Assembly (NCBI RefSeq): GCF_900107375.1
Contig: NZ_FNPT01000022.1
Location: 1 to 64,000, forward strand
Length of the DNA: 64,000 nt
Direction of reading: 5' to 3'
Source: Lysobacter sp. yr284
GTDB lineage: Bacteria; Pseudomonadota; Gammaproteobacteria; Xanthomonadales; Xanthomonadaceae
Shown here: positions 15,001 to 60,054 of the stretch, in pieces
How positions within the stretch are numbered: position 1 is the first letter of the stretch
Layout: every line of letters begins with the position of its first letter
The notes under the pieces: generated by a model
What the model saw: the letters and a program-made list of their open reading frames with translations, nothing else
Database searches by the model: none
What the model was told of the DNA's origin: nothing
Program-made: the position numbers and the translations under genes

Positions 15001-15064
15001 CAATGCGCTCGATAATGGCGACCTAATTGTCTTGCCGAAAGATAGATGGAGTAAGGATAAATGA
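12023..15064 (+). CDS. Sec-exported RHS polymorphic toxin with DUF6973-like tip
   Basis: The 1013-residue protein starts with a signal peptide (LGVASYLLFAMAASAQQ). Two Ig-like beta domains follow (about residues 30-220), then YD repeats (about 340-720) and the RHS core end (DALGSPVAMTN to GRFLSVDPV, about residues 752-818). The last 165 residues differ in base composition and form the toxin region: PADAFRHCTAACLM, NHEAWVPNP and MDLFNNRAGRALS resemble the DUF6973 family seen at RHS tips, with conserved His, Glu, Asp and Asn that could be catalytic. It overlaps the next gene by 4 nt (ATGA). A good ribosome-binding site (AAGGAGCTCCGG) precedes the start. The toxin target is unknown. Confidence 0.82.
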   Translation: MSRISKWWLGVASYLLFAMAASAQQPNPYIHVAFDYPAEGAQYVAPANVAIKATATVLDDNVFVSSIVLNGASGQLHQVQGPELQYTLSNLQPGNYAVSVIARNNLNRTASATRKFTVIAPGEKPPTVTLRAPTGAPFINPAQIGLTADAADPDGHVVSVAYYVNGQSLGTATAAPYPFTWNNVGPGNYSFTAVATDNNGKQATSAAVPVTVAQTTVRGNIDGVHPSGNGEYRVTGWACTSGRNAPIDVEFYVGGGWPQGTRVSGHTASLPSDSGIAAACQAQGTAYRFSIPITPAQQQAYANQGIFIHGVSPIGAGNLLIGNSGTYKIPAPLRISRRYVYDQSQQLCKTIEPETGATVMEYDAAGNLLWSAAGLDLPDPTQCNRAEAAASGRVVARTYDARNRLKTLRFPDGRGNQTWNYTPDGLIKDVVTDNDGANQGAVVNTYEYNRRRLLTGEAVSQAGLYSWSLGYGYDANGHLTTQAYPSGLVVRYTPNALGQPSGVWDNVTGAVFASGNRYAANGALQQFSYGNGIVHTMQQNARQLPTRSTDAGVIDLETGYDPNGNVDHILDRQRGDSYSRWMSYDGLDRLTTAGSCSFGGDCWHRFSYDAVDNLRGWSLGSVKNHRYVYDTKNRLTNILDGDAGPSVIGLGYDDQGNLFNKNGQEYHFDYGNRLRRVVGKEVYRYDAHGRRTWTQRISDSLADSGIYSQSGQLLYESKGRTGERNEYLYLGGSLLATRTRSASDTVTIKYQHTDALGSPVAMTNATGQVVERTEWEPYGSAIGKPSYNGIGYSGHPMDGATGLTYMQQRYYDSTVGRFLSVDPVTANAVTGGNFNRYKYTANNPYRFVDPDGRMDRDTKRRISEDHRLQKKEFEKNIPIANTVKPIKLLGQVPQAITLAGPIDASAAKDAKLAAEKFEKDSGLPGSHNGPADAFRHCTAACLMASAMPEEDAHQILDNHEAWVPNPADENQMDLFNNRAGRALSKEYCPTGCRNALDNGDLIVLPKDRWSKDK

Positions 15065-37179: not shown

Positions 37180-37398
37180 TCAGAAACCCTTCGAGGTGGT
37201 GGTCAGCAGCCGGCGCACCTTGCGCGGGCGCCCTTCGGTGCCCGCCAGCGCGGCTTCGATCTCGCGGATCGCGGCCAGCAACTCATCGACCGAGCGGTAC
37301 TCGACCAGGCGATCGCCGAAGCTGACGCGGCGTTCGCCGCGCGCGAGCGCGGAGCGCAGCGCCTGCAATTGCTCGTGGGTGTAAGGAAGGTCGCTCAT
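37180..37398 (-). CDS. gpW-like head-tail joining protein
   Basis: This 72-residue protein (YTHEQLQALRSALARGERRVSFGDRLVEYRSVDELLAAIREIEAAL) matches the two-helix gpW pattern and size, and sits between terminase and portal genes as lambda W does. It should bind the portal and provide the tail attachment surface. It overlaps the terminase stop by 4 nt. Confidence 0.82.
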   Translation of the reverse strand: MSDLPYTHEQLQALRSALARGERRVSFGDRLVEYRSVDELLAAIREIEAALAGTEGRPRKVRRLLTTTSKGF

Positions 37399-39329
37399 CG
37401 CATGAAACGGCTGGAGATCACCCGGCGACGGCCGGAAACGGAAAGGCCGCCCGGAGAGGCGGCCTTTGACGGAGTGGGTAGCAGTGGCTCGGTTGGATCA
37501 GGCGGGCGCGGCGGCTGCACGCCCAGCAATCGCTCGAGCTCACGCCAGTGGCGTTCTTCGAAACGATCGACGCCGGCCTGCATCGCGGCGGCGCGCGCCA
37601 TGACATAGCAGTCGAGTGCTTCGTTGCGGTCTCGGCGCTTTTCCCACACGCGCTGCGGATAACCGTGCCGGTCACGACGGGTGATCAGGTGTTCGGCCGT
37701 CAGCTGCTGGAGGAACTCGCCATCGATCTTCGGCAGATGGACGTAGCCCCCTGGGAACGTCGACTGTCCATCCGGCCCGATCTCGATCGACAAGCGCAGG
37801 GCGTTGTACAGCTCCAGCTTCGCGATGCCGCCGGCCACGACGAACAGCTTCAGGCCGCGCCGCAGACGCTTGCCCGGAATGCTCACGTCGACGGCGGTCG
37901 GGATGCCGATCAAGGCAGCGCCGCTACCGACGCCCTTCATCGGCAGCAGGCGCGGATCGTGCACATCGCGCGCGAATGCATACGCTTCCTGCGTGGCGTA
38001 GCCAGTGTCTAGGCCCAACCGGGTCAGCGGCAACAACGCGCCGGAGGCGTGGGTCCACTGCTCGCGGAGCAGCCCCGCCAGTTCAGCCCAGACCGCGCTG
38101 CGGGCGGTGTCGCCCATGAGCACCCGGTGCTCGACGAGCCAGGTCTCGCGCTCGCGGCCGAACGCCCAGACCGAGACCTCGATCCGGTCTTTCTGCACGT
38201 CGGCGCCAGCCACCAGGAGCAGGCCGCCCGTCGGCACGCTGCCGATGCGGTAATCCTCGCGCCGTTCCAGCAGGCGTTCCCAGTCGGGGGCCTCGCCCTC
38301 TTCCTCCCAGGTCTCGCCCAGTTCGGTGTTCTTGAACGCCTTAAGCGCAGTGGCCGAGTCCTGCGCCGCCTCCCAGGCCGCGGCAATGTCGGCCCAGCTG
38401 CGCCAGCCCACTGGGGAGTACAACGATGACAGGTGGTAGCCGGCGGTCTTGCCGCGGTTCTGCGGCGCCGTCGCGATCCACTGGCCGGCGGCGAGCATCG
38501 CGGTCTTGTGATGTTCCCCGATGGGGTGCTCGCAGGACTCGCAGATGTAGCGCGCCGAACGCGCATCGCCCCAGGTCCAGCGCAGTTGCTCGAACCGCAG
38601 CCATTGCGCGTGGGCGCAGTGCGGGCACGGCACAAAGAACCGACGCTGGTCCGAGGCCAGATACTCGCGCTCGATGGTCGAAGCACCAGCAATCGTCGGC
38701 GTCGAGACCAGCAGGATCTTTCGGCGGGTGAAGGTCCGGGTGCGGGCCTCGGCCAACGCGACCGCGTCGCCTTCGCCCTCCACGTCGCGCGGATAGCCGT
38801 CCACTTCGTCCAGGAACAAATAGCGCACCGGCATCGAGCGCAGGCCGACCGCGCTGTTGGCGCCGGTCAGGACCAGGACACCGCCGCGGAACTCCTTGGC
38901 GAGGATCGTGTTGCCCGAGTCCCGTGCGCGCGAGGGCGCGATGCGCTCGCGTAGCGTTGGCGACTCCTCGATCAGCGGATCGACACGCTGCTTCGAATTG
39001 CGCTTGGCCATCTCGACCGTCGGCGCCACGGCCATCATCGGCCCCGGCGCGCACGCGATGACGTAGCCGATCCAGTTGTTGCCGCACTCGGTCCCGCCAA
39101 CCTGCGCGCCCTTCATGAACACGACGCGCTCGGTCGCCGAGGCCGGCGACAGGTCGTTCATGATGTCGCGCAGGTACGGCGTGCGCGCGGTGCGCCAGCG
39201 GCCGGGCTCGGACGACGACGTGCTCGACAGCACCCGGTCGCGGTCCGCCCAATCGGACACATCCAAGAACGGATCGGGCGTCAGACCGTCGCGCCAGGCG
39301 CGCGCCACGTCGTCAAAGCCGTCGTACAA
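37395..39329 (-). CDS. Terminase large subunit (gpA family)
   Basis: The 644-residue protein has the packaging ATPase domain with KGAQVGGTECG near residue 73 (Walker A variant) and YLFLDEVDGY near 170 (Walker B). A Cys knuckle (FVPCPHCAH and CESCEHP, about 233 and 263) and a nuclease domain in the C-terminal half (GADVQKDRIEVSVWAFG, GLDTGYATQEAYAF) follow. This is the lambda gpA arrangement, so the phage probably cuts at cos sites. The C-terminal tail is basic. Confidence 0.92.
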   Translation of the reverse strand: MYDGFDDVARAWRDGLTPDPFLDVSDWADRDRVLSSTSSSEPGRWRTARTPYLRDIMNDLSPASATERVVFMKGAQVGGTECGNNWIGYVIACAPGPMMAVAPTVEMAKRNSKQRVDPLIEESPTLRERIAPSRARDSGNTILAKEFRGGVLVLTGANSAVGLRSMPVRYLFLDEVDGYPRDVEGEGDAVALAEARTRTFTRRKILLVSTPTIAGASTIEREYLASDQRRFFVPCPHCAHAQWLRFEQLRWTWGDARSARYICESCEHPIGEHHKTAMLAAGQWIATAPQNRGKTAGYHLSSLYSPVGWRSWADIAAAWEAAQDSATALKAFKNTELGETWEEEGEAPDWERLLERREDYRIGSVPTGGLLLVAGADVQKDRIEVSVWAFGRERETWLVEHRVLMGDTARSAVWAELAGLLREQWTHASGALLPLTRLGLDTGYATQEAYAFARDVHDPRLLPMKGVGSGAALIGIPTAVDVSIPGKRLRRGLKLFVVAGGIAKLELYNALRLSIEIGPDGQSTFPGGYVHLPKIDGEFLQQLTAEHLITRRDRHGYPQRVWEKRRDRNEALDCYVMARAAAMQAGVDRFEERHWRELERLLGVQPPRPPDPTEPLLPTPSKAASPGGLSVSGRRRVISSRFMR

Positions 39330-39332
39330 CGA

Positions 39333-39872
39333 TCACTCCAGGCGGGCGACGAAGTCCCCCAGTTCGGACAGGTGCTGCCGCACCTCGCGCTCCAGCGCGA
39401 CGTGCATGGCATGCGGGTCGATCCCAAGCTCCGCCGCCAGCATCGAGCTGATGCGCGCGGGCCAGTTCAACCAGGCATCGCGTTCGGCGCGCGCCAGGGC
39501 GAAGACTTGGCCGACCGCCTGCTGGCGGTCGATCAGTTCCCCGCGCAGCTGCGCGATGCGCAGCTTGTGGTGCTGGGCCTTGAGGACTTCGTTGGCGGTC
39601 CGGGCTTGGGCGTAGCTGTTGCCTCCGCTCGGGCCACTGGCCGGGCCGGGGCCCGCGTCCTCTATGGTCATAGGTGCAGCGCGCGAGCGCGCCGCAGGGC
39701 GCGGCACCGGCGCCTGCGCCGACGTCGTGTTCGCCGCCCACTCGACGTCGGCGCGCGCGGCGTCGATGGTGCCGTCCGGCAGCGCGGTGATGCGGCCGGT
39801 CGTGATGGCTTTACGTACAGCGGTGTCCGAGACGCCGCGATGGCGCCCGTAGGCGCGGATGCTGATTCCCAC
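39333..39872 (-). CDS. Terminase small subunit (Nu1-like)
   Basis: The 179-residue protein starts with a winged-helix-like DNA-binding domain (IRAYGRHRGVSDTAVRKAITTGRI). A Pro/Ala linker leads to a helical segment (ANEVLKAQHHKLRIAQLRGELID) for self-assembly and contact with gpA. It is 3 nt before the large subunit gene. It should recognise cos DNA, which in lambda lies just upstream. Confidence 0.8.
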   Translation of the reverse strand: MGISIRAYGRHRGVSDTAVRKAITTGRITALPDGTIDAARADVEWAANTTSAQAPVPRPAARSRAAPMTIEDAGPGPASGPSGGNSYAQARTANEVLKAQHHKLRIAQLRGELIDRQQAVGQVFALARAERDAWLNWPARISSMLAAELGIDPHAMHVALEREVRQHLSELGDFVARLE

Positions 39873-39873
39873 A

Positions 39874-39909
39874 GGCGGTCACTGGCAGATTCGGGCCTCC
39901 GCGACCGCC
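39874..39909. other. Candidate cos-associated inverted repeat
   Basis: GGCGGTC at 39874-39880 and GACCGCC at 39903-39909 flank 22 bp directly upstream of the small terminase gene. The position fits a cos or terminase-binding site. The cut position cannot be seen from sequence. Confidence 0.35.
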
Positions 39910-39946
39910 GGCCATCGGCGCAGATTGAAGGATTGGAAGAGGGAAC

Positions 39947-39973
39947 ACCCCAGCCCCCATCGGGGGCTGGGGT
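39947..39973 (-). terminator. Terminator of cassette gene at 39988-40515
   Basis: A perfect 12-bp stem (ACCCCAGCCCCC with GGGGGCTGGGGT) and a 3-nt loop lie 15 nt after the gene stop. Two sister hairpins with the same CCCCAGC/GCTGGGGTGTTC core occur at 40654 and 41064. Confidence 0.75.
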
Positions 39974-39987
39974 ATGCGCTCTCAGGG

Positions 39988-40515
39988 TCAGTTGCGCAGC
40001 GCGCCCGTCGCCGCGAGGATCGCGTTTTCCAACTGGCAGATCGCCTTTCGCAGGCTGGGCACGTAGGCGGCGTCGGCCACGTCCCACACCAGCATCAAGC
40101 GGGCCTCGCGAACGGCGCGGTCAAGCTGGTGGGCCGGCAGGGCGGCGAACTCCGGCTCCAGCCCGTCGAAGTATCGCTGGAGGCCGGCGAGCAACCACCG
40201 CAGCGTCATCTCGTCCTCGTTGATCTGGCTCGGCACCTCGCGCGTACCCGACCAGCCCTTCGCCTGATCGATGGCGCGCTCGATGGGCGCCAGCTCCTCG
40301 CGGCATCCCACGACGAACTGCTCGACAAGCGAGGGCGGCAGCGCGCGGGTGCGAAACGTCTTCGTGCGGTCGGCAAGAACGTTGGCAAGGCGGTGGCAGA
40401 CAACCAACGTCAAGCCTCCCGCCTCGGGCACCGGCGCGCTGGACAGCAGTATCCGCTCCACGGTGTCGCGCAAGCTGCGCAGTTCCGTCCGGGCCATCAT
40501 GATCTCGTCGTCCAT
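39988..40515 (-). CDS. Cassette gene a: hypothetical protein, 175 aa
   Basis: I do not recognise this acidic, mainly helical, soluble protein (TVERILLSSAPVPEAGG, MTLRWLLAGLQRYFDGLEPEF). It is the first of a series of small genes that share the TGTC-repeat/GAAGCGTTCATG control module; its copy is at 40554-40625. It has its own terminator. It lies just before the small terminase gene, at the right end of the packaged genome by lambda logic. Confidence 0.65.
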   Translation of the reverse strand: MDDEIMMARTELRSLRDTVERILLSSAPVPEAGGLTLVVCHRLANVLADRTKTFRTRALPPSLVEQFVVGCREELAPIERAIDQAKGWSGTREVPSQINEDEMTLRWLLAGLQRYFDGLEPEFAALPAHQLDRAVREARLMLVWDVADAAYVPSLRKAICQLENAILAATGALRN

Positions 40516-40553
40516 GGGTTCGTCCTAGTCAGGCCGCGTTGTTGCGGCAGCGA

Positions 40554-40625
40554 CATGAACGCTTCATCCGACGGGCCTCGCAAGCACTTCGTTCGCTGCG
40601 CCGCACCGTGGACAGCGCTGAGACA
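40554..40625 (-). promoter_or_regulatory. Cassette control module a
   Basis: TGTC direct repeats (read on the minus strand) lie at 40622-40625 and 40611-40614, 11 bp apart. After 54 nt comes the conserved GAAGCGTTCATG at 40554-40565. The short frame from there reads EAFMSLPQQRG. The gene ATG is at 40515. Confidence 0.75.
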
Positions 40626-40653
40626 GCTTCGCCGGCTGCTGGAAGAACGAACA

Positions 40654-40678
40654 CCCCAGCCCCTTTTAGGGGCTGGGG
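40654..40678 (-). terminator. Terminator of cassette gene b
   Basis: CCCCAGCCCC and GGGGCTGGGG form a perfect 10-bp stem with loop TTTTA, 14 nt after the stop of the 40692-40937 gene. Confidence 0.75.
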
Positions 40679-40691
40679 ACTTCACTCTCCC

Positions 40692-40937
40692 TCAGCGGTA
40701 TACGTACTCGCGCAAGATCGTCTCCCAGTCTGGCTCGCGCGGCAGGTCGACGTTGGCCTGATCACAGAGCATCTTGGTGATGGCCCAAGCGCTGCGCACC
40801 ACCTCGAAGACCGCCGCCCGGTCCTCATCCGCAAGGGTCGCATCCTCCTCCTGTCGCAGCAGGTCGTGCAGGTAAAACTCTGCCCAGGCGATGGGCTGCC
40901 TGGCTTGTGAAAATTCACGGCCGGGTACTCGGTGCAT
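40692..40937 (-). CDS. Cassette gene b: hypothetical protein, 81 aa
   Basis: This small helical protein (AWAEFYLHDLLRQEEDATLADEDRAAVFEVVRSAWAITKMLCDQ) is related in pattern to cassette gene c: both have an acidic helix followed by a CxxA or CEHAGVDL-type helix. The ATG at 40937 has an AGGAGAAGG site. The frame is open upstream through the leader (SVPQRRGEQEKD), so a longer product is possible. Function unknown. Confidence 0.65.
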   Translation of the reverse strand: MHRVPGREFSQARQPIAWAEFYLHDLLRQEEDATLADEDRAAVFEVVRSAWAITKMLCDQANVDLPREPDWETILREYVYR

Positions 40938-40973
40938 GTCCTTCTCCTGTTCGCCACGTCGTTGCGGCACGGA

Positions 40974-41045
40974 CATGAACGCTTCCTTCTCGGCCTTCAT
41001 CGAGCGAAACAGCGGCAGTGCGATAGCGCAGACACGAAGTAGACA
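40974..41045 (-). promoter_or_regulatory. Cassette control module b
   Basis: TGTC repeats (minus strand) lie at 41042-41045 and 41031-41034. After 54 nt comes GAAGCGTTCATG at 40974-40985. The leader frame reads KEAFMSVPQRRG. Confidence 0.75.
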
Positions 41046-41063
41046 GGGAGCGGAAGAGGGAAC

Positions 41064-41090
41064 ACCCCAGCGCCGTTCCGGCGCTGGGGT
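41064..41090 (-). terminator. Terminator of cassette gene c
   Basis: ACCCCAGCGCC and GGCGCTGGGGT form a perfect 11-bp stem, 15 nt after the stop of the 41106-41369 gene. Confidence 0.75.
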
Positions 41091-41105
41091 CTGTCCTCTC
41101 CCCGC

Positions 41106-41369
41106 TTAGCGTCGGGGCAAGCTGTCGATCACACTTCGCATCAAAACCCGCGCTTCCTGGTGTTGATCCAGATCCACGCCCGCGTGCTCGCAGAGCAGCG
41201 TCAGGATGTCGAAACATTGCTCCGCCAGAGCCTCGGCGGCACGCGCCTCGTCGTGGCTGAGGACGAACACTTCGTCCTCGTCCCCCGCGACCATCTCTTC
41301 GATGGTGTTTCGGCAGTCGATCAGGTCGATTAGCGTGTTGTGGAACTTGCAGTAAGACATATTGCTCAT
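41106..41369 (-). CDS. Cassette gene c: hypothetical protein, 87 aa
   Basis: An acidic helical protein (LIDLIDCRNTIEEMVAGDEDEVFVLSHDEARAAEALAEQCFDIL and then LLCEHAGVDLDQH). The end resembles that of cassette gene b (MLCDQANVDLPRE), so the two are probably diverged duplicates. The frame is open through the leader as well. The preferred ATG is at 41369. No membrane or enzymatic motif is visible. Confidence 0.65.
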   Translation of the reverse strand: MSNMSYCKFHNTLIDLIDCRNTIEEMVAGDEDEVFVLSHDEARAAEALAEQCFDILTLLCEHAGVDLDQHQEARVLMRSVIDSLPRR

Positions 41370-41408
41370 GTCGATCTTCCCGTAGTCACCGCGTCGTTGC
41401 GGCAACGA

Positions 41409-41480
41409 CATGAACGCTTCCTTCCGCGTGGAAGCCAAGCAGAACAAGCAGCGTTCGCGTTCGCAGACAGGGTTCTGACA
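41409..41480 (-). promoter_or_regulatory. Cassette control module c
   Basis: TGTC repeats (minus strand) lie at 41477-41480 and 41466-41469. After 54 nt comes GAAGCGTTCATG at 41409-41420. A perfect dyad GCTTCC-N8-GGAAGC ends in the conserved segment. The leader frame reads LASTRKEAFMSLPQRRG. Confidence 0.8.
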
Positions 41481-41499
41481 GCTTCGGCCTACGCCGCGC

Positions 41500-42006
41500 C
41501 TACTCCGGCAGTTGCCCGAGCGCTTGCTCCAACCCGCTGACCGCGAAGCTGATGCCGTGCTGGTACTCGGAGTCACGGGGCCGCAGCACGGACAGCCTTT
41601 CAACCATGGAGAGCGCTTGCGCGACCCACTGGCGCGGCGTCAACTCCCGGCGACACTGCAAGTAGTCTTCAATTTGCTGCGCTGCGGTCGCCAGCGTCGC
41701 CGCGACGGTCTCGTTCCTCCGCTTCGGCTTGCGCTTGCGGCGGTTGTAGTCGCCACGCACCCGCCGATGCCAGCTGTCCAGCTCCGCACTCGCCGCCGCA
41801 ACGCGCGCGCGCAGTTCGACGCCGTCGATTCGGCGCGCGCGGTCAATCCGCGTCCAAGGCACCAGAAATCGGGTCAAGGCGGCACATCCGTCCACGGGGC
41901 AGTTGCCGTACTCCCAGACCGGCTCCAGATCCGTGGGCGCTGTCAGCAGCCACCGTATCGTCCCCGGCAGCGCGCCAAGGGTACGTAGATCGTGTTCGAC
42001 GTCCAT
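41500..42006 (-). CDS. Cassette gene d: hypothetical protein, 168 aa
   Basis: The protein has a small Cys-containing segment (YGNCPVDGCAALTRFLVPWTRIDRARR) and a very basic stretch (RRVRGDYNRRKRKPKRRNETV) that suggests nucleic acid binding. The C-terminal half is helical. The ATG at 42006 has GGAGGAAAA upstream. It is divergent from gene e with back-to-back control modules. It has no obvious terminator hairpin of the CCCCAGC type; control module c begins 20 bp beyond its stop. Confidence 0.65.
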   Translation of the reverse strand: MDVEHDLRTLGALPGTIRWLLTAPTDLEPVWEYGNCPVDGCAALTRFLVPWTRIDRARRIDGVELRARVAAASAELDSWHRRVRGDYNRRKRKPKRRNETVAATLATAAQQIEDYLQCRRELTPRQWVAQALSMVERLSVLRPRDSEYQHGISFAVSGLEQALGQLPE

Positions 42007-42044
42007 CGCGGGTTTTCCTCCGTTGCCGCCCAGCGCGGCGAACG

Positions 42045-42117
42045 CATGAACACCTCTTCCGCCGCCGAAGCCAAGCGCCGTCGCGATTCCAGGCGGTGTT
42101 CGGACAGGCAACGGACA
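42045..42117 (-). promoter_or_regulatory. Cassette control module d
   Basis: TGTC repeats (minus strand) lie at 42114-42117 and 42103-42106. After 55 nt comes a diverged GAGGTGTTCATG ending at 42045. The upstream TTGGCTTC is kept. Confidence 0.7.
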
Positions 42118-42164
42118 GCGTTCAACGCACACGCGGCGCGTTTTCTTTGCGCCGACGACGAAGC

Positions 42165-42247
42165 TGTCCGACGCCTGTCCGTGAACGAGAACGAGCGTTC
42201 TTCAACGCGAAAACCGCTTGGCTTCCTCGGCGAACGAAGCGTTCATG
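42165..42247 (+). promoter_or_regulatory. Cassette control module e
   Basis: TGTC repeats lie at 42165-42168 and 42176-42179. After 65 nt (one helical turn more than modules a-d) comes GAAGCGTTCATG at 42236-42247. TTGGCTTCC is conserved upstream. The gene ATG is at 42282. Confidence 0.8.
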
Positions 42248-42281
42248 CGTCCACACCAACGCGGCCACGGAGGCCACCACG

Positions 42282-42506
42282 ATGAAGCAGAACGACGTGT
42301 TCAAAGAATGCCTGACCCAACTCCCCGCATCGGTACTCGCGGACTTCGGCCCCCTGACCGGCGGCGTCCTCAGCACGCTGGCGCAACAGGAATTGCAGCG
42401 CCGCGCCGCGCTCGCCCTGCAGAGCATCCCCGGGGATTACGTGGTCGACCTGCTGCTGGGCCACGCGTACCCGAGCAAGACCGTCGCCGATGTCCTCGCC
42501 GAGTGA
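42282..42506 (+). CDS. Cassette gene e: hypothetical protein, 74 aa
   Basis: A short acidic helical protein (KQNDVFKECLTQLPASVLADFGPL and then LQSIPGDYVVDLLLGHAYPSKTVADVLAE). Function is unknown. It overlaps the next gene by 17 nt and probably forms a three-gene unit with it and the DUF3489 gene. Confidence 0.65.
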   Translation: MKQNDVFKECLTQLPASVLADFGPLTGGVLSTLAQQELQRRAALALQSIPGDYVVDLLLGHAYPSKTVADVLAE

Positions 42507-42681
42507 CGCGGACCTCTGGTTCCTGAAGGCAACGGCGGCGACGGTCCTCGTCGCCGCCGCCAACGGAACCCTCGACCTCAACCAACGGGCACGCGACGAA
42601 CTGATCCGTCGCGGCCTGGACCCCGAAGGCGAATGGGTGGGCCCCAGCCGCGCGCGGGAACTGCACCACCCCAACCCCTAA
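42490..42681 (+). CDS. Small conserved phage protein, 63 aa
   Basis: The phrase NGTLDLNQRARDELIRRGLDPEGEWVGPSRARE has the pattern of a small protein family found in many phages (a short helix, then ARxELxxRGLDxxGxWVG). It starts within the end of gene e, so translation is coupled. Its function is not known to me. Confidence 0.6.
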   Translation: MSSPSDADLWFLKATAATVLVAAANGTLDLNQRARDELIRRGLDPEGEWVGPSRARELHHPNP

Positions 42682-42695
42682 CTAGGAGAACACCC

Positions 42696-43301
42696 ATGAG
42701 CAACGTCGAACTCACCGTCAACCAGCGCGCTGTCTTGGAACTGGCCGTGGCCACCGAAGGCCGCATCGAACGCTACCCCGCCGGCTTGCTTGGCGGCGCC
42801 CGCACCAGCGTCGTGCGCGGCCTGCTGCGCAACGAGCTGGTCGAGCCACACGACGCCGGCTACCGCCTGACTGCGGACGGCTACGCGGCCGTCGGCGTCG
42901 AAGCGCCGGCTGACGACGGACGGGGCGACGAGGGCGCCAGCGGCCACGACGCGCCCAGCGAACCTGCGGGCGATGCGGACACCGGCCAGAACGATGGCGC
43001 CGCCGCCGCGCCGGCCGACAGCGTGTCGGCGGCAACCACGCCGCCGGCGAAGCCCAAGCGCACGGCGCGCGGCGACACCAAGATCGCCAAGGTCATCGGC
43101 CTGCTGATGCGGTCGGACGGCGCTACCATCGCGCAGATCATGGCCGAGACCGACTGGCAGCAGCACTCGGTGCGCGGATTCCTCGCCGGCACGGTCAAGA
43201 AGAAGGGTTACACGCTGACCAACCGCAAGGAAGGCGACGGCGAGCGGGTCTACCGCATCGTGACCGAAGGTACCGCTTCGCACCGCGACGAGGAAGAGTG
43301 A
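42696..43301 (+). CDS. DUF3489-domain protein
   Basis: The 201-residue protein has two helical domains joined by a long Asp/Ala/Pro-rich linker (about 75-125). The C-terminal domain (DTKIAKVIGLLMRSDGATIAQIMAETDWQQHSVRGFLAGTVKKKGYTLT) is DUF3489, a winged-helix-like fold often carried by proteobacterial phages. The N-terminal part (LTVNQRAVLELAVATEGRIERYPAGLLGGARTSVVRGLLRNELVE) looks like a second winged helix. It may be a DNA-binding regulator. AGGAG precedes the start. Confidence 0.75.
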   Translation: MSNVELTVNQRAVLELAVATEGRIERYPAGLLGGARTSVVRGLLRNELVEPHDAGYRLTADGYAAVGVEAPADDGRGDEGASGHDAPSEPAGDADTGQNDGAAAAPADSVSAATTPPAKPKRTARGDTKIAKVIGLLMRSDGATIAQIMAETDWQQHSVRGFLAGTVKKKGYTLTNRKEGDGERVYRIVTEGTASHRDEEE

Positions 43302-43307
43302 AGCACG

Positions 43308-43337
43308 CAGCGAGCCGGGCGAACGCCCGGCTCGCTG
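43308..43337 (+). terminator. Terminator-like hairpin after the DUF3489 gene
   Basis: A perfect 13-bp stem with loop GAAC. Its distal arm runs into the first TGTC of control module f, so terminator and activator-site candidates overlap. Confidence 0.75.
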
Positions 43338-43418
43338 TCTCGTAACTGTCCAGCAATGCGCCGCATCGAAGAACGTCGCGCGTTGCGCTTGATGTTCCTT
43401 CGAATGGAAGCGTTCATG
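43336..43418 (+). promoter_or_regulatory. Cassette control module f
   Basis: TGTC repeats lie at 43336-43339 and 43347-43350. After 65 nt comes GAAGCGTTCATG at 43407-43418. The leader frame (MEAFMASQPRRPT) is in frame with the next gene. Confidence 0.8.
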
Positions 43419-43442
43419 GCCTCCCAACCACGGAGACCCACG

Positions 43443-43727
43443 ATGAAGAACGCTAACCCCCACGCCGGTCCGGACGAACTGCTCGCAACGCTTGACGCGT
43501 GCATCCTCGATATCGTCGAAGGCACCTTGTCGAACGACGAGGGCTCGACGGACGCCGAGATAGCGCAGTACCTGATGGACCTCGGCCTGAGCGAGGCACA
43601 GGCCAAGCGCGCGATCTGCTACCGCGCGCTGTACACCCTCAACCTCTGGGTGGGCGATTACACGCCAATTCGGTCGAGCGTCGCCCTTCGCTACAACGGC
43701 GAGACCGGCCAGTTTGAAATCGCCTAA
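43443..43727 (+). CDS. Cassette gene f: hypothetical protein, 94 aa
   Basis: The protein (LLATLDACILDIVEGTLSNDEGSTDAEIAQYLMDLGLSEAQAKRAI) is acidic and helical with a beta end (SVALRYNGETGQFEIA). The N-terminal half has the spacing of a small UBA/HTH-like bundle. The leader frame runs into it without a stop, so an extended form may be made. Function unknown. Confidence 0.65.
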   Translation: MKNANPHAGPDELLATLDACILDIVEGTLSNDEGSTDAEIAQYLMDLGLSEAQAKRAICYRALYTLNLWVGDYTPIRSSVALRYNGETGQFEIA

Positions 43728-43729
43728 CC

Positions 43730-43761
43730 GGTATGCCCCGCGCGCTGCGCGGCGGCATACC
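43730..43761 (+). terminator. Terminator-like hairpin after cassette gene f
   Basis: GGTATGCC and GGCATACC enclose an inner CCGCGC/GCGCGG stem. It directly precedes the single TGTC of module g, as the hairpin before module f does. Confidence 0.7.
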
Positions 43762-43834
43762 TGTCCGACCGCTGAGCGGCGCCCGAAAAGCCAGGCAGAT
43801 TCCCTTGGCTTCCAGCTGGATGGAAGCGTTCATG
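43762..43834 (+). promoter_or_regulatory. Cassette control module g
   Basis: Only one TGTC is present, at 43762-43765; the expected partner 11 bp upstream is lost. After 66 nt comes GAAGCGTTCATG at 43823-43834. The dyad GCTTCC-N8-GGAAGC is perfect. Confidence 0.7.
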
Positions 43835-43859
43835 GACTCCCTACCGCAGGAGGCCAACC

Positions 43860-44183
43860 ATGACCACCACGCTGCTCCCGCCCTACCAGCTCCGCATTCG
43901 GTTTAGTCGCAAGCCGGCGAACTATCGCGCCATGATGCGCGAGCTAAGCGGCTACTACGTAGAACCCGAGTTGATCTGGGTTATCGAGCGCAAGACGATG
44001 ACCCAATCCGAGTATCGCGCGTTCGAGCGCGACTTCGCCAAGCCGCAGTCTTGGATCTGGGAACTCAACAGCCGACCCGGCCATTGCATCATGGTCGTCG
44101 CGCCTCGGATGCCGACGCTGTATGTCCGGGCCGAAGGGACCGACCATGCCTGCTACGTCGGGCTGCCGGCGGACGAAGAGTAA
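43860..44183 (+). CDS. Cassette gene g: hypothetical protein, 107 aa
   Basis: A beta-rich protein with many aromatics (YQLRIRFSRKPANYRAMMRELSGYYVEPELIWVIERKTM and then GHCIMVVAPRMPTLYVRAEG). Alternating strands suggest a small alpha/beta fold. AGGAGG precedes the ATG. A hairpin ends it. Function unknown. Confidence 0.65.
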   Translation: MTTTLLPPYQLRIRFSRKPANYRAMMRELSGYYVEPELIWVIERKTMTQSEYRAFERDFAKPQSWIWELNSRPGHCIMVVAPRMPTLYVRAEGTDHACYVGLPADEE

Positions 44184-44189
44184 GCCTCG

Positions 44190-44218
44190 CCCTGGCGCCG
44201 CGCTGCGCGGCGTCAGGG
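44190..44218. terminator. Bidirectional terminator-like hairpin
   Basis: CCCTG-g-CGCCGCG pairs with CGCGGCG-t-CAGGG with one mismatch, between convergent cassette gene g and the cytosine methyltransferase, overlapping the last codons of the latter. Confidence 0.6.
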
Positions 44219-45247
44219 ACGCAACGCCCTCAAGATTTCGGCGGCGACCTGCGGGACGATCGCGTTGCCGGCGGCGCGCAGGCGAGGAATTCTTCCGGGT
44301 ATCCCATGAGCCAGAAGACGAATTCCGGGTTCAGGAATCCGCCGACCGGCGAGGGTTCGACCTGTCGCCCAAGCATCCCATTGACCGGCGCGCTGCCAAC
44401 GCTCGATGCGTCCTTGTGGTCTCGCGTCGTCGGCGTCGCCCACACGGCCTGCGCCGGGAGCGGCTGGGTCGCGCCACTGCCGAAGCTCTGATTCGGTCCG
44501 CCCTTCTCCCCGTCGCTGGCGCGCGGGGTGCTCCAGACCGCCTTCGCCACGCCCGGCAGGCCATTGCGCCGCTCGGCCGCAAAGTTGCCGCGCTTCTCCG
44601 GGTCGTTCGCCGTCGCCGTCGGCCAGACGGCCTTCGCTGCGACTTGCAAGCTGGTGATCGCCTTGCGTGGGCCGTCCGGCATCCGGCGCTTCATCGCCAG
44701 GTGCGCCTCCGGAGACTTGTTGTCGTCGTTCGCCACCGCGGTCGGCCAGACGCTGCCCGACGATCCAGACGCGGTCGCGCCGGTGCGGGGCGTTGACGGC
44801 GCAAGCTGGAACAACAATCGCCCGGCTGGCGTAGCCTTCGCCTTCCAGGTCAGCAAGAACTCCGTCGAGCCCCAGCGCGATGAGGCCAGCAACGTTCTCG
44901 CCCAGGAATAGAGCGGGTCGCGCTTGTGCAATAAGGCGACGCAGTTCCGGCCAGAGGTGGCGGTCGTCGGCTTGCGCGCGCTGGTTGCCGGCGACGCTGA
45001 ACGGCTGGCAGGGGAAGCCGCCGGTCCACAGTGGCGCGTCGTCCGGCCAGGCCGCGAGTCGGGCGGCGTAGGCGAACCCGCCGACCCCGGCGAAGAAGTG
45101 GCACTGGGCGTAGCCGCGGACATCGTTTGCGGAAACAGATCGGATGTCGCGGTCATCGACGTCGCCGGCCGGGATCAGGCCCGCCGCCATCAAGTTCTTC
45201 AGCCACTGGCACAGGTACGGATCGATTTCATTGTAATAGACCGACAC
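44213..45247 (-). CDS. DNA (cytosine-5) methyltransferase
   Basis: The 344-residue enzyme has the ordered m5C motifs: FFAGVGGFAYA (motif I, about 50), GGFPCQPFSVAG (motif IV with catalytic Cys, about 77), GENVAGL (VI, about 115), PHRRDRVWIVG (VIII, about 153) and GNAIVPQVAAEIL near the C-terminus (X). It transfers a methyl group from SAM to cytosine in DNA. The target-recognition region (about 165-300) is Gly/Arg/Glu-rich. No restriction partner is present, so it is an orphan phage enzyme, possibly protecting phage DNA from host restriction. It overlaps the next methyltransferase by 1 nt. Confidence 0.9.
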   Translation of the reverse strand: MSVYYNEIDPYLCQWLKNLMAAGLIPAGDVDDRDIRSVSANDVRGYAQCHFFAGVGGFAYAARLAAWPDDAPLWTGGFPCQPFSVAGNQRAQADDRHLWPELRRLIAQARPALFLGENVAGLIALGLDGVLADLEGEGYASRAIVVPACAVNAPHRRDRVWIVGQRLADRGGERRQQVSGGAPGDEAPDAGRPTQGDHQLASRSEGRLADGDGERPGEARQLCGRAAQWPAGRGEGGLEHPARQRRGEGRTESELRQWRDPAAPGAGRVGDADDARPQGRIERWQRAGQWDAWATGRTLAGRRIPEPGIRLLAHGIPGRIPRLRAAGNAIVPQVAAEILRALRP

Positions 45248-46530
45248 TAGGCAGCGTCCTCGGCCTCCACGTCGGCCGCGATGAACGCGACGCCGTCGGA
45301 AGCGCGGATCGCCTGCTGGCCGGTGTAGTCCTGCCAGCGCCGGACGATGACATCGACGTACTTCGGGTCCAGTTCGATGAGGCGCGCGCGGCGGCCGGTC
45401 TTCTCGCAGGCAATCATGGTCGTTCCCGATCCGCCGAAGGGATCGAGCACCAGGTCGCGGGTCTTGCTGCTGTTGCGGATCGCTCGTTCGACCAGCGCGA
45501 CCGGCTTCATCGTCGGGTGTAACTGGCTGCGGGCCGGCCGGTCGATGAACCAGACATCACCCTGATCTCGCGCGCCACACCAGAAGCGGTCATTGCCGTC
45601 GCGCCAACCGTAGAGGATCGCCTCGTACTGGCGCTGGTAGTCGGCCCGGCCCATCACGAAGTGGTTCTTCGCCCAGATGATGAAATCCGACCAACGACCG
45701 CCCGCAGCGCGGAACGCTACCTGCAGGCGGTCCAGCTCGGACGAAGACATCGCGACGTACACCGCGCCCTTCGTGACCTCCAGGATTTTGCGGCAGGCGC
45801 TCTCCAAGAACGAACCGAAGTCCGTACCGAGATTGTCGTTCAGGATTTCGCGCTGGGTTCCCCGGATCTTGTCGCGGGGGTTGTTCCCGTAATCGACGTT
45901 ATACGGCGGGTCGGTGAATGCCATGTCCACCAGCTCGTCGCCCAGCAGCGCAACGTAGTCGTCGGCCAACGTGGCGTCGCCGCAGATAACGCGATGTGTT
46001 CCGCAGATCCAAACATCGCCGTGCCTAGAGACCGGCTCGGCTTCGGGCTCGGGTGCGGCATCCTCGTCGGTCAGACCCGCTTCTTCGCCGAGGCCGAGCA
46101 GCTCATCGATCTCTTCATCCGAGAAGCCGAGCAGGTCCAGATCGAAATCGGCGTCACGCAGCTCGGCCAGCTCCAGCGCCAGCAGTTCGTCGTCCCAGCC
46201 CGCGTTCTCGGCCAAGCGGTTGTCGGCCAGAATGTAGGCGCGCTTTTGCGCGCTGGTCAGATGCGCCAGCTCGATCACCGGCACGGTGTCCAGGCCCAGC
46301 TGGCGCGCAGCAAGCAAGCGACCGTGTCCGGCGATCACGCCGTTGGCGGCGTCGACCAGGATCGGATTCGTCCAGCCGAACTCCACGATGCTCGCAGCGA
46401 TCTGCGCAACCTGCGCGTCGGAGTGCGTGCGCGCGTTGCGCGCATACGGAATGAGCGCCCCGATGGGTCGCTGCTCGATCTGGAGGGTCAAGGGCAATAC
46501 CGTGCGAACCCAGGTTTGCAGACGCTGCAA
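45247..46530 (-). CDS. ParB-like domain fused to DNA amino-methyltransferase
   Basis: The 427-residue protein starts with a ParB/Srx-like domain (IGALIPYARNARTHSDAQVAQIAASI, then GVIAGHGRLLAARQLG, about residues 23-115). An acidic linker leads to an N6-adenine/N4-cytosine methyltransferase with DPPYNVDYG (about 207) and DPFGGSGTTMIACE (about 365), the beta-class order. Such fusions occur in phages and plasmids and are usually orphan methylases. The start is uncertain: the longest frame opens with TTG at 46530 inside a palindrome, and there is no ATG before the domain. TTG at 46497 or 46491 is possible. Confidence 0.85.
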   Translation of the reverse strand: MQRLQTWVRTVLPLTLQIEQRPIGALIPYARNARTHSDAQVAQIAASIVEFGWTNPILVDAANGVIAGHGRLLAARQLGLDTVPVIELAHLTSAQKRAYILADNRLAENAGWDDELLALELAELRDADFDLDLLGFSDEEIDELLGLGEEAGLTDEDAAPEPEAEPVSRHGDVWICGTHRVICGDATLADDYVALLGDELVDMAFTDPPYNVDYGNNPRDKIRGTQREILNDNLGTDFGSFLESACRKILEVTKGAVYVAMSSSELDRLQVAFRAAGGRWSDFIIWAKNHFVMGRADYQRQYEAILYGWRDGNDRFWCGARDQGDVWFIDRPARSQLHPTMKPVALVERAIRNSSKTRDLVLDPFGGSGTTMIACEKTGRRARLIELDPKYVDVIVRRWQDYTGQQAIRASDGVAFIAADVEAEDAA

Positions 46531-46536
46531 ACCTGG
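46510..46536. promoter_or_regulatory. 27-bp perfect palindrome at the methyltransferase start
   Basis: CCAGGTTTGCA and TGCAAACCTGG are 11-bp arms with a 5-bp centre. The position over the start of the ParB-methyltransferase gene suggests an operator for autoregulation, or an mRNA hairpin controlling translation. Confidence 0.6.
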
Positions 46537-46932
46537 AAGGAAGACTTGACACTAGCGGGGTTTTGCGGCTACGCCCCCCGCTCGTCCTGACCGCCAGGAA
46601 GGACCCTGGCGAATTTTTGACCACTCGCCGCATCGCCCCAACGGCGGCCGCGGTAGGCCGCGTGTCGGCCTGGGACCCGCGGCGCTAGGGTCGGCGCGGC
46701 ACGTCGGCAGAGGCCGACACACGCGCGCACGCCGCGAAGAAAGGCGGGCCAGCCCGGAGCGGAGGAGGCGGCGGAGGCACTCCGGGCTGGCCCTAGTGGT
46801 CGCGCTGCATTCATGGCACAGCGCGCTCAGCATGGGGATCAGACTAGGCCAAAGATCGACTTTTTGGGACAGGGATGTTTGTTGCCCGAGCACTGTTTAT
46901 CTGCGTTTACCCGCGTCTGCCGAAAAGAGGTT
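46537..46932. other. Non-coding region with three inverted repeats
   Basis: No supported gene. Hairpins: CGCCAGG/CCTGGCG at 46592-46611, GTCGGC/GCCGAC at 46703-46718, and a 14-bp perfect arm pair at 46746-46759 and 46780-46793. The last is followed on the minus strand by GCCTTTCTTCG and could end the early operon; the region may also hold the promoter for the methyltransferase genes. Confidence 0.5.
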
Positions 46933-47337
46933 CTATGTGTCGGGCGAAACGATGCGCGGGAGCGCGCCGTTGAGATGGACAGTGACCAGGTTGAGCGCGT
47001 GCTGCCATCGACGCCATGCGGTCTTTCGGACCAAGCCGGTGCGTGTGCAGACCTCGCGCCACGGAACGTACTGCGCGCGCAGCCAGATCAACCGACGCTG
47101 TTCTTCGCCCAGCCATTGCAGCCAACGCACGGTTTCGCCAAAGCGGTCGATCGCACCGGGCGATGCCGCGAAGCGCAGTACGATCCGCTCGTCCGCATAG
47201 CCCTCCCAGGCTTGGCGGTTGATGTCCGGCCAGAAGGCAGCGTAGCCCTGCACCCGAGCCGGTGGCAGGCGGCGCGCGGTAACCGCCGCCTCGTGGAAGC
47301 GATCAGTCACCCGCTGCACAGTCCAGATCTCGCTCAT
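46933..47337 (-). CDS. DUF6362 family phage protein
   Basis: The 134-residue protein (IWTVQRVTDRFHEAAVTARRLPPARVQGYAAFWPDINRQAWEGY then WLQWLGEEQRRLIWLRAQYVPWREVCTRTGLVRKTAWRRW) matches the DUF6362 pattern, with a C-terminal helix-turn-helix-like end. The family is common in proteobacterial phages at the end of the replication region. A DNA-binding or late-control role is plausible. It overlaps the resolvase gene by 4 nt. Confidence 0.72.
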   Translation of the reverse strand: MSEIWTVQRVTDRFHEAAVTARRLPPARVQGYAAFWPDINRQAWEGYADERIVLRFAASPGAIDRFGETVRWLQWLGEEQRRLIWLRAQYVPWREVCTRTGLVRKTAWRRWQHALNLVTVHLNGALPRIVSPDT

Positions 47338-57610: not shown

Positions 57611-57804
57611 GCGCACCAGGTCTGCTCAGCACTGGGTCTACTGCTGAAACACGCCGAACCGAAGTCGCTCGCCTTCTTGCGCTCGCGCTGACACGGTGCC
57701 GGCGCGACGATAAACCCGCAGGTTGGACACGGAAGGGGGTTGCCAACCCGCGCGCGGGAAGCGTCCATGTCCCTCCCTTCAAACCGGGTCCAACCCAGCG
57801 ATGA
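57607..57804 (+). CDS. Small protein linking excisionase and DUF2924 genes, 65 aa
   Basis: The start overlaps the previous stop (GTGA) and the stop overlaps the next start (ATGA), so the frame is held by both neighbours. The product is Arg/Thr-rich (TAETRRTEVARLLALALTRCRRDDKPAGWTRKG). No motif recognised. Overlaps support a real gene, but the sequence is not distinctive. Confidence 0.5.
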   Translation: MSAPGLLSTGSTAETRRTEVARLLALALTRCRRDDKPAGWTRKGVANPRAGSVHVPPFKPGPTQR

Positions 57805-58283: not shown

Positions 58284-59629
58284 GCGACTCGGAGACCTCG
58301 CGTCGTCTGCGCTGCGCGGTGTACACGCGCAAGTCCACCGAGGAGGGGCTGGAACGCGAGTACAACAGCATCGAAGCCCAGCGCGACGCGGGTCAAGCCT
58401 TCATCGCCAGCCGCCGTGCTGAAGGCTGGATTCCCGTCGCGGACGACTATGACGACGCTGGCTACTCGGCGGCCACGTTGGCTCGCCCCGCGTTAGAACG
58501 TCTGCTGGACGACATCCGCGCCGGCAAGATCGACATCGTCGTTACCTACAAGATTGATCGGCTTTCCCGAAGTCTGCGCGACTTTCACCGGCTGTGGGAG
58601 CACATGACGGCGCACGGGGTCGAGTTCGTCGCCGTGACGCAGCAGTTCAACACGACGGACGCGATGGGTCGGCTGATGCTCAACATTCTTCTCTCGTTCG
58701 CCGAGTTCGACCGCGAACTGGACGTGGAGCGCGCGCGCGACAAGATGATCGCGAGCAAGAAGAAGGGCCTGTGGATGCACGGCGTTCCGCCCCTGGGCTA
58801 CGACTTGCGGAACCGCCGGCTCGTGGCTGACCCCAAGGAGGCGCCGCTGGTCCGCTGGATTTTTCAGCAGGTCGCCGCAGGCGTGCCGACGTCGAAACTG
58901 GTGGCCGCGTTACGTGACCGCGGGGCGACCTCGAAGGTCTGGACTACTCGGAACGGACGGCAGATCGTCGGCAAGGCTATCGACAAATCTCTGCTGTACA
59001 AAATGCTCGCCAACCGCACCTACCTCGGGGAGCTTCGCCACGGTGCTCAGTGGTTCCCCGATTCGCACGAAGCCATCATCGATCCGGAACTCTGGGCAGA
59101 GGCGCAGGCGGCAACCGCGACGCGGCAGCGCGCGTTGCCTTCGCCGGACACCTCCAAGATTCCCTTTCCTCTGCGTGGGCTGGTTTTCGCGGCGGACGGC
59201 AGGGCCATGACGCCTTGGCATACCACCAAGCGCAATGGTCGAACGTATCGTTACTACGTCCACACCCGCGCGCTGCATGAAAGCGCCAAGCTCCTGAAGC
59301 TGCCTCGCGTCCCTGCAGGCGAGCTGGAAGCCGCCATTATCGAGCAACTGCGGAGTGTCCTGCGCGCACCGGAGCTTATTTCCGCCATGTTGCCGCAGGC
59401 CGTCGCCCTGGACGCCAGTCTGGACGAGCCGCAGATCATGGTGGCCATGCTGCGCCTGCATGAGATCTGGGAGTACCTTGCCGGGCACGAGCAGGCGCTG
59501 ATGCTTCAACTACTGATCGAGCGCATCGTCGTCCACGAAGACCGCGCTGAGTTGCGACTGCGCCCGCTGGGTCTGACTACCTTTGTCCACGAACTAGAGC
59601 AGCACGAAGCCATCGAGGCGTCCGCATGA
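58280..59629 (+). CDS. Large serine recombinase (prophage integrase)
   Basis: The 449-residue enzyme has a resolvase/invertase domain (residues about 10-150): CAVYTRKSTEEG with nucleophile Ser19, and KIDRLSRSLRDFHRLWEHM. A recombinase domain follows (about 165-260, HGVPPLGYDL), and the C-terminal part lacks a full zinc ribbon. It should integrate and excise the prophage at short att sites using a 2-bp crossover. It lies at the right end, in an operon with DUF2924 and an accessory gene. Confidence 0.92.
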   Translation: MSDSETSRRLRCAVYTRKSTEEGLEREYNSIEAQRDAGQAFIASRRAEGWIPVADDYDDAGYSAATLARPALERLLDDIRAGKIDIVVTYKIDRLSRSLRDFHRLWEHMTAHGVEFVAVTQQFNTTDAMGRLMLNILLSFAEFDRELDVERARDKMIASKKKGLWMHGVPPLGYDLRNRRLVADPKEAPLVRWIFQQVAAGVPTSKLVAALRDRGATSKVWTTRNGRQIVGKAIDKSLLYKMLANRTYLGELRHGAQWFPDSHEAIIDPELWAEAQAATATRQRALPSPDTSKIPFPLRGLVFAADGRAMTPWHTTKRNGRTYRYYVHTRALHESAKLLKLPRVPAGELEAAIIEQLRSVLRAPELISAMLPQAVALDASLDEPQIMVAMLRLHEIWEYLAGHEQALMLQLLIERIVVHEDRAELRLRPLGLTTFVHELEQHEAIEASA

Positions 59630-60054
59630 GCAAGTTCAAGGTCCAGATCGCCACCGGCAGCGACGGCTCTATCGCTTTCGATGTCCCGCTTCGGATCACA
59701 AAGCGCGGCTACCGCAAGCTCGTTCAGCTCACCGGGCCCGAGACCGCCGAGCGGCCATGGGACGCTCGGCCGACCGCGCTCCAGCGTGCGCTTGGTCGCG
59801 CGGAACGCTGGCGTCGGATGCTGGAATCCGGCGAAGCAACGTCGATCAGCGATCTGGCGGCCAAGGAGGGCACAGACTTCAGCTACATCGCCCGGCTGCT
59901 CAACCTCACGACTTTGGCGCCGCAGCTAGTAGCGGCCATCTTGGATGACACGCTACCCAGCGGCACGACCGTCAACGACCTAGCAATTAATGCACCTTTA
60001 CTATGGTGCGAACAGGTCAGGCGGTTGGCGCTAAAGCGCGGCCCTCTGAGGTGA
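59626..60054 (+). CDS. Serine recombinase accessory protein
   Basis: The 142-residue protein often accompanies serine recombinases with DUF2924. It has a beta N-terminus (KVQIATGSDGSIAFDVPLRITKRGYRKLVQL) and a helix-turn-helix end (ISDLAAKEGTDFSYIARLLNLTTLAPQLVAAILDD). It overlaps the recombinase by 4 nt. A role in site choice or DNA binding is likely but unproven. It is the last gene of the prophage. Confidence 0.75.
   Translation: MSKFKVQIATGSDGSIAFDVPLRITKRGYRKLVQLTGPETAERPWDARPTALQRALGRAERWRRMLESGEATSISDLAAKEGTDFSYIARLLNLTTLAPQLVAAILDDTLPSGTTVNDLAINAPLLWCEQVRRLALKRGPLR

Follow-up and report, generated by a model that had tools for sequence, protein, structure and literature searches.

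A putative helically phased promoter module repeated before small accessory genes of a Lysobacter prophage family and of satellite-like elements

Why should a prophage place one and the same control region, over and over, in front of small genes that belong to several families? The question arises from a stretch of 64,000 nucleotides of Lysobacter sp. yr284 (positions 1 to 64,000 of contig NZ_FNPT01000022.1; hereafter the window), in which a prophage carries an array of seven such regions, here called modules a to g. Modules a (40554-40625), b (40974-41045), c (41409-41480) and d (42045-42117) lie on the minus strand and modules e (42165-42247), f (43336-43418) and g (43762-43834) on the plus strand, with d and e back to back. 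Each of a to f holds a direct repeat of TGTC with an 11-bp period (CTGTC pairs at 40611-40625, 41031-41045, 41466-41480, 42103-42117, 42165-42179 and 43336-43350, respectively), and g keeps a single TGTC (43762-43765), at -61, followed 11 bp on by TGAG. Downstream of the repeat comes a core, at 40554-40584 in a, 40974-41004 in b (where its -35-like half is degenerate), 41409-41439 in c, 42045-42075 in d, 42217-42247 in e, 43388-43418 in f and 43804-43834 in g, within which GAAGCGTTCATG is exact in all modules but d, which carries GAGGTGTTCATG; upstream, TTGGCTTCC is conserved in c, e and g, and d has TTGGCTTCG. All of these features had been described in a sequence-only reading of the window, and they hold on inspection. 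TGTC-N7-TGTC occurs six times in the window, exclusively in modules a to f, compared with a mean of 1.51 in shuffled sequence, and none of 100 shuffles reached six. In the complete genome of this strain (6,249,540 bases in 46 contigs), a pattern combining the pair with GTTCATG recovers the six modules a to f plus one unrelated match in contig C25, and the core pattern with up to one mismatch recovers five places, all within the array, a match in contig C24 appearing at two mismatches. The seven modules are confirmed as real and far from chance. The two spacing classes proposed earlier, of 54-55 and 65-66 nt, stand when the distance is counted to the ATG; counted to the first base of GAAGCG they become 45-46 and 56 nt (57 for the single TGTC of g). 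Module g, earlier assigned to the long class, may be a short-class module with a decayed second half-site.

The same architecture was then followed beyond the window, in a sample comprising the window and 29 loci of the host genus or of matching viral sequences (about 460 kb), with TGTC-N7-TGTC alone as the anchor. GAAGCGTTCATG lies downstream of 83 of the 86 distinct pairs with at most two mismatches (74 exactly), at 41 bp (one pair), 52 bp (six), 60-62 bp (44) or 70-72 bp (32), and in 85 controls, taken upstream of the pairs, even the best match had four mismatches or more; since these loci were fetched through core matches, the count supports the tie between box and core, not their abundance. 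The TGTC spacing is conserved in related phages, so that the loss of spacing named as a refutation in the sequence-only reading was not seen. Exact pairs occur in 58 of 103 non-redundant modules (at -52 in 4, at -60 to -62 in 30 and at -70 to -72 in 24), and 10 further modules have TGTC-N7-TWAA at -70/-71, a string found 25 times in total over 2.2 Mb counted over both strands. The consensus of the box is CTGTC-N6-CTGTC. The core is bipartite with a fixed spacing, CTTGGCTTC-N8-AAC-N3-GCGTTCAT, the GAAGCGTTCATG box being one half of it; CTTG lies at -19 in 81 of 93 exact cores, and the core is mostly found 24-40 nt upstream of the gene start. The G of the ATG in GTTCATG is kept at 105 of 111 sites in the host genus. 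In other hosts, where the box takes the AGCGCGTTC form, 65 of 220 sites from the 77 multi-copy loci described below (among the matches listed) end in ATA, 54 in ATC and 51 in ATG, and the ATG need not be a start codon.

Based on these regularities, we consider it probable that the modules form a dedicated, activator-phased promoter regulon of small accessory genes, common to helper phages and their satellites. Three layers would make up such a regulon. The first would be the promoter-like bipartite core, common to the integrase operons of many mobile elements. The second, in the host genus, would be the CTGTC-N6-CTGTC box upstream, displaced in steps of about one helical turn (-52, -60, -71), as expected of an activator that touches RNA polymerase from upstream; if GCGTTCAT serves as the -10 element, the centres of the boxes would fall at about -62, -72 and -82, where class I activators sit, and the activator itself is likely to be phage-encoded. 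The third, above all in units of gene family 2 (to which the gene behind module e belongs), is the palindrome AGAACN4GTTCT, probably a repressor operator. Genus loci totalling 957,501 bases contain 20 copies of this palindrome, all of them inside modules and no more than 110 nt upstream of the core. It accompanies family 2 for the most part (13 of the 21 modules of that family, and 9 elsewhere), and its sole place in the 6.25-Mb genome of the strain is module e (AGAACGAGCGTTCT, 42188-42201). The earlier notion of a dedicated regulon of cargo genes would therewith survive in its regulatory half, as modules that would act as one unit through helically phased upstream sites; the cargo half does not, as the genes form a few conserved families and are not arbitrary. 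A conserved stretch so close to the genes could also be an RNA or translation leader with a hairpin around the Shine-Dalgarno (SD) sequence rather than a promoter. A stem can be drawn right after the core in 51 class-1 leaders, where each of five inner pairs forms in 43 to 50 of the 51, and leaders before DUF2924 genes often pair around the SD sequence when read by eye. The stem is almost invariant, however, so that covariation gives it no support, and the phase pattern of the TGTC box suggests a reader at the DNA level, which makes the leader reading very unlikely. An Rfam search over 39800-44300 gave three matches, all under the gathering score. We also rejected a leader peptide, EAFMSLPQRRG, around GAAGCGTTCATG: the few changes in the box are mostly non-synonymous, and beyond the host genus ATA or ATC often takes the place of the ATG.

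The genes behind the modules fall into families. On the minus strand, gene a (39988-40515, starting at 40515 or 40497) and gene d (41500-42006) belong to family 1, and genes b (40692-40937) and c (41106-41369) to family 0. On the plus strand, module e precedes three genes in a row, namely gene e of family 2 (42282-42506), a gene matching PHROG 22970, of unknown function (42490-42681), and a gene for a DUF3489 protein (42696-43301), followed behind their own modules by gene f of family 3 (43443-43727) and gene g of family 4 (43860-44183). Across loci, single linkage groups 134 proteins into six families (41, 31, 22, 13, 13 and 11 members) and three singletons. The seven genes had been called unrelated except for b and c; these two are indeed related, weakly (E 1e-4), but a and d also form one family, with no direct match (E 0.31) and one intermediate joining them. 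Terminator-like hairpins were recognised by eye on the minus strand behind gene a (39948-39973, a hairpin kept upstream of terS), gene b (40654-40678) and gene c (41065-41089), and units a to c at least would end there. Among the modules placed, those of families 0 and 1 are directed toward terS in 29 of 30 cases and those of families 2 to 5 away from it in 27 of 27, a count for which 58 modules were placed and 10 without terS within 9 kb left out, and from which genomes G090, G116 and G157 are absent, presumably because they were already counted among the viral loci. Exact pairs before families 2, 3 and 5 are of the -71 class in 30 of 30 cases; those before families 0 and 1 are at -60 (45), -52 (6) or -71 (2). 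Given that direction and spacing follow the gene family, the array consists of two arms, each with its own spacing class. Cassettes iterated in two directions, in numbers that vary among prophages, might also call to mind recombination sites for cassette shuffling; yet the cores mostly keep to their place before a start codon, their direction and spacing go with the gene family, and they also occur singly before integrase operons, and we find that explanation barely credible.

Modules a to d point toward terS (39333-39872) and terL (37395-39329), which occupy 37395-39872 of the minus strand. On the other side of the array, a lambda-type cos region lies on the minus strand at 46500-46606, with a cosQ-like part (46597-46606), a cosN-like part (about 46552-46580) and then GGTTTGCA/GGTTCGCA repeats. 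Read from 46606 to about 46500, this strand shows GGGTCCTTCC, then CGGGGGGC...GCTAG and then GGTTTGCA-like repeats; in lambda, the right end reads GGGTCCTTTCC...TTACG and the left end GGGCGGCGACC. The names cosQ, cosN and cosB follow lambda usage. The lambda-type layout is present, with cosQ-cosN-cosB-like sequence followed by terS and terL in the same direction, and the left end of the packaged DNA is predicted at about 46578. Methylase genes and the array sit between cos and terS, so that the array belongs to the left end by the lambda convention, not to the right end of the packaged genome, where it had been placed before. An expression built from these cos sequences matches 51 of 437 loci, some of them overlapping, and its reversed control none. 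The linear record of the related Rhodobacter phage RcDormio has a DUF6362 gene last and a ParB-like gene first (L432, L433), and its joined ends read GCG-GGGGGC at the cosN-like position. In RcDormio the gap between cos and terS, with small genes on the opposite strand, is maintained even without the core.

Genomes of the host genus also contain smaller elements with the same modules. Three loci of about 9-10 kb, in genomes that also have such prophages, carry modules, a related serine integrase, DUF2924 and the ParB-like gene: L071 8300-18600 in G293, L100 1-10300 in G217, and L098 10300-19900 with L103 1-1640 in G205. No match to terL, terS, portal or DUF6362 was found in them (tblastn of the window phage proteins, a DUF6362 search, and open reading frames). 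They share a block not found in the prophages, made up of an HTH_17 protein, a conserved protein of 593-621 aa and a variable protein, and the presence of this specific block in three genomes argues against independent prophage decay. Searches of Pfam, PHROG and NCBIfam left the 593-621-aa protein without a match, and we recognised no replication gene in these elements. A cos-like site of the helper type is present in all three, as well as in a remnant in genome G273. In G205, the module arm is inverted relative to the satellite block and the halves of the array are cut by contig ends; in G217, terL appears at three places (both ends of C2, and C3), probably from one prophage split by assembly. 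By gene content these three loci look like satellites that a helper would mobilise, and elements with the same cos and the same modules would switch on together with it. The G273 remnant (L072 8000-10000 and about 16600-16900) consists of the cos-like site together with a single module and a broken stretch of DUF3489, and its genome lacks DUF6362. A conserved stretch just before terS was also considered as cos and rejected: the satellite-like loci do not have it (8-10 mismatches of 29 at best), and the cos-like site lies 6.7 kb away. Regarding att sites, no direct repeat longer than 12 bases was found at the ends of two prophages and the three satellite-like loci. The window prophage adjoins an RHS-repeat protein (12023-15064, Pfam), as does L098 (4553-9709, Pfam), and L072 and L099 have similar large open reading frames by similarity, as if the prophage and several satellite-like elements had a common target neighbourhood.

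How far do the two parts of the module extend? Of the 395 family genomes, 15 contain a pattern of 22 specified bases at no more than two mismatches; ten, all of the host genus, have at least two copies, and the five single matches in the others each have two mismatches. The core pattern is present in 11 of 20 genus genomes, ten with related prophages and the eleventh being G273 with its remnant. In eight other genera, the core spacing recurs in 15 of 17 loci of DUF6362 prophages, mostly as CTTGGCTTC...AGCGCGTTCAT (35 sites; reversed control, 1), and the core is found once in each of two distant satellite-like relatives (L116, L117), with no cos-like site in the part fetched. The TGTC box appears to be largely genus-specific and the core wider. 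Scans of genome and viral contigs found the core in at least 119 and at least 120 stretches, with overlap between the collections (de-duplicated by identical or near-identical sequence only) and some single matches plainly due to chance, such as L238, a Clostridium. Among the matches listed, 77 of 236 loci examined have two to seven copies, counted with a looser pattern than that of the contig scan, and these 77 include, within the fetched stretch, DUF3489 in 65 and TerL in 52; 115 single-copy loci without phage markers, as sought within the fetched stretch of each locus, include a serine integrase in 81 and DUF2924 in 80, the rest including chance matches. In phage AcaML1 (JX507079), three cores precede small genes and a fourth precedes DUF2924, all of them found in this analysis. 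In the multi-copy loci of other genera (for example L197, L151 and L235), an inverted repeat GAAGCCAAGC...GCTTGGCTTC can be seen by eye, its right arm being formed by the CTTGGCTTC half of the core. In one other genus (L159, L160, L163, L164), a related box, [CT]GTC-N7-T[TG]AAC, stands exactly at -40 from CTTG in one module of each locus.

Such a distribution suggests a broader model, which we hold to be an even call: the core would represent an undescribed class of promoters, dedicated to mobile elements throughout the Proteobacteria and recognised by a factor that the elements encode, with the integrase operon, the helper array and the satellite genes in one regulon to which lineages add their own phased box. 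Our first candidate for a reader of the core is a small ParB/KorB-like helix-turn-helix protein; that the core is the operator of this protein, which would control both the integrase operon and the array, with the TGTC box as a local addition, is a somewhat unlikely rival reading. The gene concerned lies behind the serine integrase in the window (59626-60054, plus strand), and 49 of the 50 single-core loci that lack phage markers and extend 900 nt or more beyond their serine integrase contain a relative. The first Foldseek matches of its model are the DNA-binding domains of ParB, Noc and KorB (E from 0.067, probability about 1; Spo0J E 0.067), and AcaML1, with its four cores, has a partial match to the gene (E 8e-7); a much stronger score obtained there is circular, the locus having been part of the training data. 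On the other hand, the structure and profile E-values are weak, with sub-threshold matches only in Pfam and NCBIfam, the core is at best weakly palindromic, and the integrase operons of host-genus phages carry degenerate cores, such as GTTG...GAAGCGTCCATG before the DUF2924-integrase operon of the window (57739-57769, plus strand); the score used for such degenerate cores rewards TTG, and its 14 of 16 is biased. A DUF6362 protein (46984-47274, minus strand), with a domain resembling sigma region 4, could instead serve the phage as an initiation factor and recognise the core, with CTTGG as -35 and GCGTTCAT as -10. Of the 20 genus genomes, the 10 with prophages, and only those, have DUF6362, the core goes with it in the loci of other genera counted above, and one genome match examined is an ECF sigma factor beside FecR, with an overlap in region 4 (E 6e-5, weak). 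Its PDB profile matches include no sigma factor, though, the satellite-like loci do without it, no core was found in the 16.6 kb examined of RcDormio, which has DUF6362, and AcaML1 with four cores gave no DUF6362 match (tblastn, 1e-5; nor in 9 of its proteins), so that this role is unlikely. The core consensus, read by eye, does not show the GG-N10-GC of sigma-54 promoters.

Concerning the box, the DUF3489 protein encoded behind module e is our first candidate as reader, though a tentative one. Each of the ten prophage-bearing genomes of the genus has DUF3489, and so does each of the three satellite-like loci. Its model displays two confident winged-helix domains (predicted local distance difference test, by block, 87-97 and 90-95) joined by a disordered linker, and its best PDB folds are winged helices, with weak E-values; a two-headed protein of this kind would suit a direct repeat. 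The host PhoB could also be thought to read the CTGTC repeats, as half-site and 11-nt period equal those of the E. coli pho box. Of 58 pairs, however, only 4 have an A after CTGTC in the first half-site and none has one in the second, and the pair with GTTCATG is confined in this genome to the prophage, bar the unrelated match; CTGTCAYN4CTGTCA was not found in the genome, which means that host pho boxes may differ from those of E. coli. We regard PhoB as a very improbable reader indeed.

Several observations weigh against the probable reading of the modules as an activator-phased regulon. No TGTC lies within 115 nt upstream in 14 of the 103 modules, and 35 have neither an exact pair nor TGTC-N7-TWAA. 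Compared with the sigma-70 hexamers, the core has a conserved TTG, and no TATAAT-like box was found in it. Outside the host genus, DUF3489 phages have 0 or 1 TGTC pair per locus, as do DUF6362 phages, the related box was seen in 4 loci of one other genus, and neither a TGTC pair nor AGAACN4GTTCT was found in the 32 kb examined of AcaML1. In 11 of 30 genomes with a core before the integrase operon (30 of 45 loci were used), DUF3489 was not found, so it cannot be the general reader of the core, and its co-occurrence with the box is weak evidence given that both come from the same elements. The sequence, its spacing and distribution, the cos sequence and the gene families are directly observed. 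What they suggest is a lambda-cos-type, serine-integrase prophage family in which the accessory genes between cos and terS would be co-regulated, in two directions and with different spacing classes. A literature search returned no description that we recognised as this system, although the AcaML1 papers could still hold one; it found nothing for DUF6362 and, among the matches listed, only unrelated papers for sequence strings. If the regulon is real, a single DNA signature marks the co-regulated accessory genes of a large, little-studied group of phages and of the elements that share its packaging site, offers a handle on many small genes of unknown function, and provides a set of promoters whose natural variation lies in the position of the activator alone, in whole helical turns.

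Among known systems, AcaML1 is alike in the gene order around terS, the cos-like site, DUF3489, DUF2924 and four cores, and differs in that neither pair nor palindrome was found in the 32 kb examined. The P4 delta protein illustrates how one type of activator serves both helper and satellite promoters. In P2, TGT-N12-ACA sites lie at four late promoters of structural operons (PMC3931495). The P2 Ogr and P4 delta systems resemble the modules, as interpreted here, in the upstream activator box and in the sharing of one activator type by helper and satellite; here the repeats are direct and 11 bp apart, in three helical phases, the genes are small and accessory, and the core is another one. No Ogr-type zinc-finger activator was named in general scans of 21 window proteins, a search specific to it not being among them. 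P2 and P4 also have hotspots of accessory genes adjoining cos (PMC9122126), which places such genes beside cos in helper and satellite alike; in the present elements they belong to few conserved families, each with the same control region, and a PADLOC search with nine array proteins from the window gave no match. The E. coli pho box, described as 11-nt direct repeats with CTGTCAT (PMC4415409), shares with the modules the direct repeat of CTGTC and its period; in the modules A rarely follows CTGTC, a separate -35-like element comes downstream of the box, and in this genome the box does not occur outside the prophage except for one unrelated match. A helper-satellite pair that relies on headful packaging (PMC4936722) is different. 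Another comparison group is that of phage-inducible islands and P4-like satellites (PMC6092414), which the satellite-like elements resemble in having an integrase, a small helix-turn-helix protein, a helper-type cos and no structural genes found. They differ in the absence of a recognisable replication gene, in a serine integrase with DUF2924 that is related to the helper's own, and in carrying the accessory families of the helper together with its modules.

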